Positions 6,839 through 20,019 of a stretch of 39,935 nucleotides of DNA are shown here, one piece after another. Below the pieces are notes generated by a model, which ran no database searches, had not been told where the DNA came from, and saw nothing but the letters and a program-made list of their open reading frames with translations. Position 1 is the first letter of the stretch. Every line of letters starts with the position of its first letter. Source of the DNA: Candidatus Doudnabacteria bacterium (lineage in GTDB: Bacteria > Patescibacteriota > Doudnabacteria > UBA920); the NCBI GenBank assembly GCA_031291995.1, contig JARLHZ010000024.1, positions 1 to 39,935 of the forward strand. The letters run 5' to 3'. The position numbers and the translations under genes were made by a program.

Positions 6839-6904
6839 ATACCCTTAGTTTACCACAAATCTCCAGGCTTGAAAAATCCCAATATTTGTGGTAAAATATC
6901 AGAA
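6839..6904. promoter_or_regulatory. Divergent promoters sharing an inverted TTTGTGGTAA box
   Basis: Plus strand: TTGAAA (6869-6874), 17-base spacer, TAAAAT (6892-6897), aimed at the tRNA island. Minus strand: TGTGGTAAACT (extended -10) leads into the deacetylase gene. Because both directions use the same extended -10 word, an 11-bp inverted repeat results (6850-6860 and 6884-6894). Confidence 0.65.
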
Positions 6905-6979: not shown

Positions 6980-7010
6980 GGCGCTATCATCTAATGGTTA
7001 GGATAAGTGG
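6980..7010 (+). pseudogene. 5' half of an interrupted tRNA (probably tRNA-Glu-like)
   Basis: GGCGCTA (acceptor), TC, then a D-arm ATC-TAATGGTTAG-GAT and the anticodon-stem 5' strand AGTGG align base for base with the intact tRNA-Glu at 7309. At 7011, where the anticodon loop should start, the sequence enters a 37-bp palindromic repeat. The matching 3' half is 441 bases downstream at 7452-7486. Confidence 0.75.
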
Positions 7011-7047
7011 TTTTTCCGCCGGAGGCGGACCCGCCTCCGGCGGGCAT
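7011..7047 (+). repeat. Palindromic 37-bp repeat, copy 1
   Basis: Begins right after the anticodon-stem 5' strand. Its core is a perfect 13-bp hairpin: CCGCCGGAGGCGG pairs with CCGCCTCCGGCGG across AC. It is bounded by TTTTT and GGGCAT. The last bases (CAT + G) also provide an ATG for the GIY-YIG frame. The second copy at 7415-7451 differs at four positions, each G here and A there. Confidence 0.85.
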
Positions 7048-7054
7048 GACTAAT

Positions 7055-7294
7055 ATGTATTATTTGTATGTGCTAAAAAGTCTAATAAGGCCCTGGCATT
7101 ATATTGGCATTACCGATAATACCGAGAAGAGACTCGACCAGCATAATTCAGGAGTGACTAAGTCAACCAAAGCTTATAGGCCTTTCAACATTGTTTATAC
7201 TGAAATATTTGAAGATAAAACTTTAGCAAGAAAAAGAGAATTATTTTTAAAGAAAAATTTTAAGGCAAGAAAAGCTATATTCAAAAATTTATGA
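7055..7294 (+). CDS. Small GIY-YIG domain nuclease
   Basis: 79 residues, single GIY-YIG domain of the UPF0213/UvrC-N-like type: YYLYVLKS (GIY strand), HYIGITDN (YIG strand), EKRLDQHNSG with the active-site Arg, and RKRELFLKKNF with the conserved Glu. An alternative in-frame ATG at 7046 adds MTN. The frame stays open upstream through the palindrome, but that part (PPEADPPPAG) is the repeat read as protein and is probably not translated. Family members are putative endonucleases, and GIY-YIG domains also occur in homing enzymes. The gene lies inside an interrupted tRNA, between repeat copy 1 and an intact tRNA-Glu. Confidence 0.85.
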   Translation: MYYLYVLKSLIRPWHYIGITDNTEKRLDQHNSGVTKSTKAYRPFNIVYTEIFEDKTLARKRELFLKKNFKARKAIFKNL

Positions 7295-7308
7295 GCATTT
7301 TCTTTGGG

Positions 7309-7383
7309 GGCCTCATCGTCTAATGGTTAGGACAACAGCTTTTCAAGCTGTGAATCGGAGTCCGATTCTCCGTGAGGCTACCA
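7309..7383 (+). tRNA. tRNA-Glu (anticodon UUC)
   Basis: Full cloverleaf: acceptor GGCCTCA with TGAGGCT (first pair G-U), D-arm GTC-TAATGGTTAG-GAC, anticodon arm ACAGC-TTTTCAA-GCTGT with anticodon TTC at 7342-7344, T-arm CGGAG-TCCGATT-CTCCG, discriminator A and an encoded CCA (7381-7383). The T-loop reads TCC where TTC is usual, so position 55 is C instead of T. Confidence 0.93.
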
Positions 7384-7414
7384 AAGTAAGTGCTCATCTG
7401 TATTATTAGGGTTG

Positions 7415-7451
7415 TTTTTCCGCCAGAGGCGAACCCGCCTCCAACGGGCAT
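7415..7451 (+). repeat. Palindromic 37-bp repeat, copy 2
   Basis: 33 of 37 bases match copy 1 (7011-7047); the four differences are all G to A and break four positions of the hairpin stem. It ends exactly where the anticodon-stem 3' strand CCACT of the interrupted tRNA begins. Confidence 0.85.
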
Positions 7452-7486
7452 CCACTAAATCGGGGTTCGATTCCCCGTAGCTACCA
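7452..7486 (+). pseudogene. 3' half of the interrupted tRNA
   Basis: CCACT pairs with AGTGG of the 5' half (7006-7010). Then follow a 4-base variable loop, T-arm CGGGG-TTCGATT-CCCCG and TAGCT-A-CCA. The 5' acceptor GGCGCTA would need a 7-base partner such as TAGCGCT; only TAGCT is present, so two bases seem lost and even a spliced product would have a damaged acceptor stem. Confidence 0.75.
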
Positions 7487-7492
7487 AATTAA

Positions 7493-7522
7493 AATACCGC
7501 AATGCATGCGGTATTCTAATTT
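7493..7522 (+). terminator. Terminator of the tRNA island
   Basis: AATACCGC (7493-7500) pairs with GCGGTATT (7508-7515) around AATGCAT, followed by CTAATTT. It lies 6 bases after the encoded CCA of the 3' half, as expected for a tRNA transcript end. Confidence 0.75.
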
Positions 7523-7614
7523 GCCCTGAGTTTGTCGAAGGGTAATTATCCAATCGAATGGAATTTTTTTTATTGCCCTGAGCAAGTTACCCGAAGCGTG
7601 GCGGGTCAAAGGGT
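7523..7614. repeat. Two REP-like palindromes (CCCTGAG...GAAGGG type)
   Basis: GCCCTGAGTTTGTCGAAGGG at 7523-7542 is a repeat word seen widely in bacterial intergenic DNA. A second, altered copy at 7575-7614 starts GCCCTGAGCAAG and ends TCAAAGGG, and is split by a further small hairpin ACCCG-AAGCGTGG-CGGGT (7589-7606). Confidence 0.65.
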
Positions 7615-19281: not shown

Positions 19282-20019
19282 ATGTACCTAGAAACCCTGC
19301 AAGAGCTCGGTTTGTCGCTAAACGAATCAAAAATCTATGAGTCCCTGCTGGGCCACGGAATTTTGTCGGTGCCGGATATTTCCGAACGCACCCAGGTTCA
19401 CAAACGCAATATTTACGACGCCATCCCCCGGCTGCTTAATAAAGGGCTAATTTACCAGATAGCCGAAAGCAAGGAAGCCAGGTACGCGGCAGTTGCCCCG
19501 GATAAGTTATCCGATCTGGTTTGGGAAAAGGAGTCCAAATTGGAAAAAATTCTGCCCGGGTTAAACAAGCAATATAAAAAAACCGCCACAAGCGAGGCGG
19601 TCTATATATACAAAGGCAAGGAAGGGTTTAAAAATTACCTGCGCGATATTTTAAAAGTGGGGGAGGATGTGTATTTTGTCGGGGCTAAAGGCGGTTGGTT
19701 CGACCGGGACCTGCAGACTTTTATCCAAAAATTCTTGAATGCCGCCAAGAAAAAGAAAATTAAATACTACCATATTTTCGATCATGAAATTAAATCCAAA
19801 GCGCCGGAATTACTTCCCGTGCTCGGCAAGCCATATAAATTCCTGCCTCCGGCCTATTCAACGACCGGAGCCATAGACATTTTTGGTGACAGAATAGTTA
19901 CTTTTTCGGGGCTAACTTTAAAAAGCATAACCGAAGATGTAACTTTAACCGTCATAGTCAATCGCGAACTGGCTGACTGTTACCGGACATGGTTTCGGTT
20001 CATGTGGGACAGTCTATAG
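19282..20019 (+). CDS. TrmB-family transcriptional regulator
   Basis: 245 residues. Residues 1-75 form a winged helix (LQELGLSLNESKIYESLLGH, VPDISERTQVHKRNIYDAIP, LLNKGLIYQI) typical of TrmB. A helical linker follows, then a PLD-like C-terminal effector region (EAVYIYKGKEGFKNYLRDIL, VYFVGAKGGWF, IFGDRIVTFSG) without a catalytic HKD motif. In Thermococcales, TrmB controls trehalose/maltose uptake and treT, which makes the nearby TreT-like gene and symporter interesting; TrmB-like proteins are common in CPR, so the link is only suggestive. It converges on the RND pump gene with a 1-base gap. Confidence 0.85.
   Translation: MYLETLQELGLSLNESKIYESLLGHGILSVPDISERTQVHKRNIYDAIPRLLNKGLIYQIAESKEARYAAVAPDKLSDLVWEKESKLEKILPGLNKQYKKTATSEAVYIYKGKEGFKNYLRDILKVGEDVYFVGAKGGWFDRDLQTFIQKFLNAAKKKKIKYYHIFDHEIKSKAPELLPVLGKPYKFLPPAYSTTGAIDIFGDRIVTFSGLTLKSITEDVTLTVIVNRELADCYRTWFRFMWDSL

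Follow-up and report, generated by a model that had tools for sequence, protein, structure and literature searches.

A tRNA gene that is cut open within its own anticodon, with a nuclease gene and a complete second tRNA lying in the gap, raises the question of what kind of genetic unit creates such an arrangement and how the cell survives it. The gene lies in the window (the whole stretch of DNA analysed, 39,935 nucleotides), which forms contig 39 of the draft genome (1.49 Mb, 39 contigs, 94% complete) of Candidatus Doudnabacteria bacterium. Here, a 434-bp insert (7015-7448) separates anticodon bases 35 and 36 of the tRNA-Glu gene at 6980-7486; it harbors, in this order, a double hairpin, a GIY-YIG ORF of 82 aa, an intact tRNA-Glu(UUC), and a second double hairpin (Table 1). 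This unit is probably a selfish, homing-like mobile element, one that disrupts a tRNA gene while bringing along a rescue copy of it.

Anatomy of the interrupted tRNA-Glu locus

The initial annotation had recognized a tRNA split exactly in the anticodon loop by repeats around a GIY-YIG gene and a second tRNA, and the halves, the anticodon stem, the T-arm, the repeats, and the ORF are all present as it had described them. It had noted that a repeat copy without its 30-base palindrome would leave a valid loop with UUC; once 7015-7448 is removed in a script, ARAGORN recognizes a tRNA-Glu(UUC). The two 37-bp repeat copies, at 7011-7047 and 7415-7451, agree at 88% over 41 bp, and each contains one of the 30-nt double hairpins. 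The GIY-YIG gene is the one protein ORF of at least 60 aa in the insert, which holds neither a tyrosine or serine integrase nor a Y1 (TnpA_REP) transposase. An Rfam scan of the window returned tRNA as the sole match, with no group I intron or ribozyme core and no other RNA family, so that a group I intron or another known RNA was rejected. The promoter-like site upstream, a weak consensus match, is a candidate for transcribing the resident tRNA and, since the insertion, the entire unit.

Table 1. Features of the interrupted tRNA-Glu locus (positions in the window)
Feature	Positions	Strand	Basis
Promoter-like site TTGAAA-17-TAAAAT	6869-6897	+	Consensus scan, weak
Resident tRNA-Glu 5' half, last base = anticodon base 35	6980-7014	+	Contiguous with 3' half in relatives G001, G002, G004, G005, G015, G017, and others
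Double hairpin copy 1: two 15-nt hairpins, each 6 bp with 3-nt loop	7015-7044	+	Direct reading; 21 such elements covary
Short sequence similar to the beginning of the 3' half (CATgACTAAtat vs CATccACTAAatc); overlaps the ORF start	7045-7056	+	Direct reading; clearer in relatives, e.g., L113, L131
GIY-YIG nuclease ORF, 82 aa	7046-7294	+	Pfam PF01541, E=4.4e-16
Inverted repeat around cargo tRNA, 5' arm (leader)	7291-7307	+	Fold z = -7.7; present in other units too
Intact cargo tRNA-Glu(UUC)	7309-7383	+	ARAGORN; Rfam 60.4 bits
Inverted repeat around cargo tRNA, 3' arm (CCA end and trailer)	7381-7397	+	Fold z = -7.7
Copy of 5' anticodon arm (GTTGTTTT) preceding double hairpin 2, end of spacer	7411-7418	+	Direct reading
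Double hairpin copy 2	7419-7448	+	Within repeat copy 7415-7451
Resident tRNA-Glu 3' half, first base = anticodon base 36; 2 nt fewer in the acceptor strand than relatives have	7449-7486	+	Relatives
Terminator-like inverted repeat directly after resident tRNA	7485-7523	+	Flank common to tRNA-Glu of G001, G005, G015

The GIY-YIG domain spans residues 4-75 of the ORF and is accompanied by no separate DNA-binding domain that could confer site specificity, as found in homing endonucleases. The catalytic domain itself has the intact active site of such enzymes: Y8, Y19, G21, R29, H33, and E65 are invariant at active-site positions in 25 aligned sequences. An AlphaFold model (pLDDT 94) places Slx1 and UPF0213 (1ywl, 1zg2), also the closest solved relatives, as the nearest folds, with I-TevI more distant. 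NCBIfam assigns no family to the protein. A phage origin of the unit was rejected, as no relative was found in viral contigs and the matches in Rhizobium phages were only partial.

The inverted repeat formed by leader and trailer encloses the intact tRNA not only in the window but also in several other Glu and Gln units, and may stand in for the native terminator that was lost, or assist processing. Long GC-rich leader and trailer repeats (CTTGCCCTGC...GCAGGGGCC and CCACTCGACTCGC...) are shared by two further loci of the host genome, L063 and L066 (G000:C4, C25), which comprise tRNA-Ala and, near tRNA-Pro and tRNA-Ala, a GIY-YIG remnant; this may be another family of repeats associated with tRNAs.

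The broken gene, its uninterrupted counterparts, and the carried tRNA

In relatives of the same genus or family, the matches to 6980-7014 and 7449-7486 lie directly adjacent and form an intact tRNA-Glu, and in G001, G005, and G015 the similarity to the window extends into the terminator-like flank. Because the relatives carry both halves as one intact tRNA-Glu, a chance match is ruled out and the halves belong to one tRNA, as had been proposed. The 3' acceptor strand of the broken gene reads TAGCTACCA, that of the relatives TAGCGCTACCA; since it is two bases shorter, the acceptor stem of the joined halves is decayed and mismatched, and the broken tRNA-Glu is therefore a pseudogene. This bears on the notion of a split or intron-containing tRNA whose parts are rejoined at the RNA level. 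Although the halves exactly restore the anticodon stem and loop, they do not yield a functional tRNA, given the decayed acceptor stem and the lack of a 3' half in most related units; in addition, an intact tRNA is present, and the window contains no group I intron or other Rfam match beyond tRNA. Rejoining at the RNA level is thus highly improbable.

The neighbor genes of the window are not kept at the tRNA-Glu loci of G001, G004, G015, and others in a synteny comparison, while G006 keeps two of them (a PIG-L gene and orf3963) with no tRNA at that place. The window's own synteny being unusable, presence and absence were demonstrated on a pair of genomes of genus g4: the tRNA-Glu(UUC) locus on contig 41 of G010 is occupied, whereas the collinear contig 6 of G017 carries one uninterrupted tRNA. 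The empty tRNA locus, which the initial annotation had named for comparison, thus exists both in syntenic position and as contiguous tRNA in relatives, and the unit, like a homing endonuclease gene, is absent from otherwise matching alleles. At the occupied locus of G010, the intact tRNA is followed by two successive remnants consisting of a hairpin and a 3' half, the last of them with an extra palindrome in the T-loop. Contig 46 of G010 against G017 and G020 was dropped as a further pair of occupied and empty sites because the orientation of the tRNA relative to the flanks differs, and a search for syntenic empty sites of L113 gave mostly tRNA-level matches and no clear empty site. Downstream of position 2337 in L111, a tRNA 3' half occurs in tandem repeats with a hairpin between the anticodon halves, which resembles a record of repeated insertion.

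The cargo tRNA is the only tRNA-Glu that ARAGORN found in the draft host genome. Judging from its structure, it would restore tRNA function, as does the tRNA copy supplied by integrative elements. It differs from the resident halves and is 97% identical to the plain tRNA-Glu of a genome from another genus (G008, g2); as a different allele with this affinity, it apparently came in with the unit and looks like a foreign allele. A tRNA-Glu(CUC) was not found in the host genome, although relatives have one and most comparable codon boxes here carry both anticodons; it has either been lost or lies in the absent 6% of the genome.

A second unit of the host genome occupies a tRNA-His gene (L059, G000:C37, about 97100-97900, minus strand). 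A long double hairpin divides the tRNA at its anticodon loop and is followed by a GIY-YIG ORF of another subfamily, an intact tRNA-His, and a second hairpin copy. The 3' halves are repeated, the locus is more rearranged than that of tRNA-Glu, and ARAGORN reports no rejoined tRNA from the His halves. At this locus, too, the cargo tRNA is the only one of its isotype found in the genome, which argues for a homing-like element. In the same genome, a comparable arrangement at L064 (G000:C12, about 19400-20000, minus strand) shows a GIY-YIG ORF between two copies of an Asn-like 5' tRNA fragment with palindromes in the D and anticodon arms, and then a 5' tRNA half running into an apparent group I intron.

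Recurrence of the unit and its double hairpins

For a survey across bacteria, GIY-YIG sites were chosen by protein similarity alone, through an alignment search of GTDB genomes and a profile survey of one order; most of the sites found were fetched, and 137 remained after removal of duplicates. In 73 of the 137, a tRNA starts -10 to +163 nt after the ORF match on the same strand, against a chance expectation of about 0.7 sites (own arithmetic, at about 45 tRNAs per megabase genome); none was found on the opposite strand. The other 64 relatives, which have no tRNA just downstream, mostly form separate clades and provide an internal contrast. The units are hosted by many lineages of Patescibacteria and, in single cases, by Bacteroidota, Elusimicrobiota, Margulisbacteria, and Deferribacterota, and their isotypes include Glu, Gly, Ser, Gln, Leu, Asn, Asp, His, Val, Cys, Pro, Lys, Trp, Thr, and Arg. 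The protein clades track the tRNA isotype (29 changes compared with 66.7 in shuffles, on a quick tree built from few columns). The suggestion of a new kind of small mobile unit, put forward from the window alone, is upheld to the extent that a recurrent unit of mobile type occurs in many tRNA genes of several phyla. An assembly artefact, for which the fragmentation of the draft into 39 contigs might speak, is contradicted by the same architecture in many independent assemblies and phyla and is hardly conceivable. About 20 nt spanning the anticodon loop are tandemly duplicated in L099 (1943-2035), in a tRNA-Glu-like gene that lies beside a GIY-YIG ORF and is called tRNA-Gln by ARAGORN.

Upstream of the ORF, 50 of the 73 units retain a 5' remnant of the downstream tRNA (with a score above all shuffles), and 43 of these remnants start at tRNA base 1 or 2. 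A hairpin breaks the remnant in the anticodon loop in 25 of the 50 and in the D-arm in 18. The anticodon-loop breaks fall after base 35 in 19 cases, after base 34 in three, after base 36 in one, and after base 37 in two. A 3' remnant downstream is found in 10 of the 73 units, and in six of the 10 it starts at base 35-37 directly after the hairpin. The two-copy palindrome unit assumed in the initial annotation is accordingly present in the window but represents the minority form. Glu remnants match the local intact tRNA at 742 of 761 positions (97%), whereas the intact tRNAs of different Glu units share about 80% over their first 35 bases, and for this reason the insertions look recent and repeated. 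The similarity between remnant and tRNA may reflect either repeated recent insertion or gene conversion that keeps the copies alike.

The 30-base palindrome of the initial annotation is placed in the anticodon loop as precisely as had been claimed, but it is actually a double hairpin, and palindromes occur in remnants also in the D-loop and sometimes in the T-loop. In 21 double hairpins, 98.4% of the pair cells hold standard pairs, compared with 75% after shuffling, a percentage that is partly due to choice since the elements were selected by eye as 30-nt double hairpins; covariation amounts to 0.63 versus 0.19. The hairpin sequences vary among units while the shape is kept, and the break point is constant at base 35. 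Near-copies of the 28-mer palindrome are dispersed at generic sites of the host genome (L031, L033-L040), mostly preceded by a T-run, and the flanks of the nine inspected contain no evident tRNA or GIY-YIG gene. Such dispersed repetition is that of REP elements. Because near-copies sit at generic places, the palindrome is REP-like as a sequence, and of its earlier proposed link to GIY-YIG genes and tRNAs it is the placement that stands.

These observations invite an alternative, namely that the double hairpins represent a mobile palindrome of REP type in its own right, with a preference for hairpin loops or T-rich sites, and that it broke the tRNA first, with the GIY-YIG gene and the tRNA copy as passengers or later arrivals. 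The near-copies after T-runs and the palindromes in D, anticodon, and T loops alike would fit such an element. However, a search of 380 genomes for the Glu-anticodon hairpin pattern gave only three palindromic matches, all beside GIY-YIG units, and the break at base 35 recurs in units whose tRNAs differ by 20%, which makes an independent palindrome unlikely. A similar order of events had been proposed at the outset, with the palindrome entering the loop and the unit then expanding between two copies; the palindrome in the loop and the gene and intact tRNA between the copies were verified, and the precedence of the palindrome is conjecture. Most likely, the hairpins belong to the unit, either as marks of its ends for a structure-specific, Slx1-like nuclease or as a block against re-cutting of the dead halves; the hairpin may also serve the nuclease as substrate, as supposed at the outset.

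The position of the hairpins immediately upstream of the start codon, and of the tRNA within a leader-trailer helix in several units, could also be understood at the RNA level. The remnant and hairpins would then constitute a structured 5' leader controlling the ORF, the protein would act on tRNAs or their precursors, and the tRNA would be its resistant partner, as in toxin-antitoxin systems. Such a system is improbable, since empty alleles and 3' remnants make DNA insertion evident, D-loop hairpins lie far upstream of the ORF, and the nearest solved relatives of the protein are DNA nucleases.

A probable homing-like element and its known counterparts

The homing-like mobile element favored here is directly supported by the anatomy of the unit, its recurrence and site preference, the presence/absence pair, the decay of the broken tRNA, and the uniqueness of the rescue tRNA in the host genome; the repetition of the architecture at tRNA-His and the invariable orientation of the tRNA on the strand of the ORF also count in its favor. 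In the proposed sequence of events, the nuclease would cut an uninterrupted tRNA gene at or near bases 35|36, and repair from a copy bearing the unit would insert ORF, tRNA, and hairpins. The carried tRNA would replace the destroyed one and the cell would come to depend on it, so that the insertion could be survived and losing the unit would come at a cost. The hairpins would serve as ends of the unit or as shields of the dead halves. Against this reading count the bare catalytic domain, unlike known homing endonucleases with their DNA-binding domain, the double hairpins of the same type elsewhere in the genome without a tRNA, and the GIY-YIG relatives without an adjacent downstream tRNA. Its weak point is self-protection, as the anticodon loop of the carried tRNA equals that of the broken one in many units (e.g., on contig 41 of G010 and in L113); recognition of structure or flanking sequence, and not of the loop alone, is a possible solution.

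A more far-reaching idea, advanced tentatively and with less conviction than the homing-like reading itself, is that minimal mobile elements form a new class, in which a GIY-YIG nuclease that is structure-specific and stands alone would transfer its own gene together with a spare tRNA and double hairpins into the hairpin loops of tRNA genes (anticodon, D, or T). Nucleic-acid hairpins would act as a recognition code instead of a DNA-binding domain, and the element would persist through dependence on its tRNA. tRNA genes being essential, a unit that splits the anticodon and brings the replacement would, if the reading is true, be an addictive selfish gene. It could swap tRNA alleles between lineages and would account for many small GIY-YIG orphan genes and tRNA fragments of Patescibacteria. 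A widespread single-domain GIY-YIG family of unknown role is thereby offered a testable function. A literature search on GIY-YIG proteins, tRNA, palindromes, and Patescibacteria yielded no earlier description of the unit among open-licence papers, and an element of this kind appears undescribed. It is filed provisionally with the homing-type elements, short of proven membership, since the protein lacks the DNA-binding domain and cleavage is putative.

Several known systems share individual features with the unit. Integrative elements with attachment sites in tRNA genes supply a copy that keeps the tRNA functional, and a fragment stays behind as a repeat. They resemble the unit in the supplied copy and the leftover fragment; the unit differs in having no integrase, a length of only 434 bp, a break inside the anticodon, and displaced halves that contain hairpins. 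Anticodon loops of tRNAs are also the site of group I introns that encode GIY-YIG endonucleases and spread recurrently. The insertion site, the ORF, and the recurrent spread are alike, but the unit has no ribozyme and leaves the broken tRNA unrestored, supplying a second copy instead. In Allomyces mitochondria, a mobile insertion in atp6 replaces part of the gene, and double-hairpin elements occur in the same mtDNA. The similarities are a nuclease ORF with a replacement gene piece that displaces the resident one, and small mobile double hairpins; the target, in contrast, is an organellar protein gene instead of a tRNA, and hairpins and nuclease are not known to constitute one unit there. REP elements with RAYT transposases combine short GC-rich palindromes with a nuclease gene, but the enzyme belongs to a different class and there is no tRNA cargo. 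With regard to the closest structural relatives of the protein, Slx1 works together with Slx4, and neither UPF0213 nor Slx1 is known to be mobile or linked to tRNAs.

SegB of T-even phages is a free-standing GIY-YIG homing endonuclease whose cleavage sites lie within tRNA genes. According to the available parts of PMC13096335 and the 2008 study cited there, its gene accompanies tRNAs of many isotypes, and it spreads the tRNA region or amplifies it as a tRNA-segB segment. An arrangement recalling such amplification was observed in Litoribacter ruber (L127), where four serial tRNA-Asp genes lie immediately upstream of a related GIY-YIG ORF. Unlike SegB, which phages encode, the family described here consists of a bare domain of about 80 aa that bacterial chromosomes carry and that a search of viral contigs did not recover. 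Those parts of the SegB description mention neither tRNA genes split into remnants nor hairpins in the tRNA loops nor a substitute tRNA lying within the target gene. Like the family described here, SegB is a GIY-YIG enzyme encoded next to tRNA genes of many isotypes, and it represents the nearest functional parallel.
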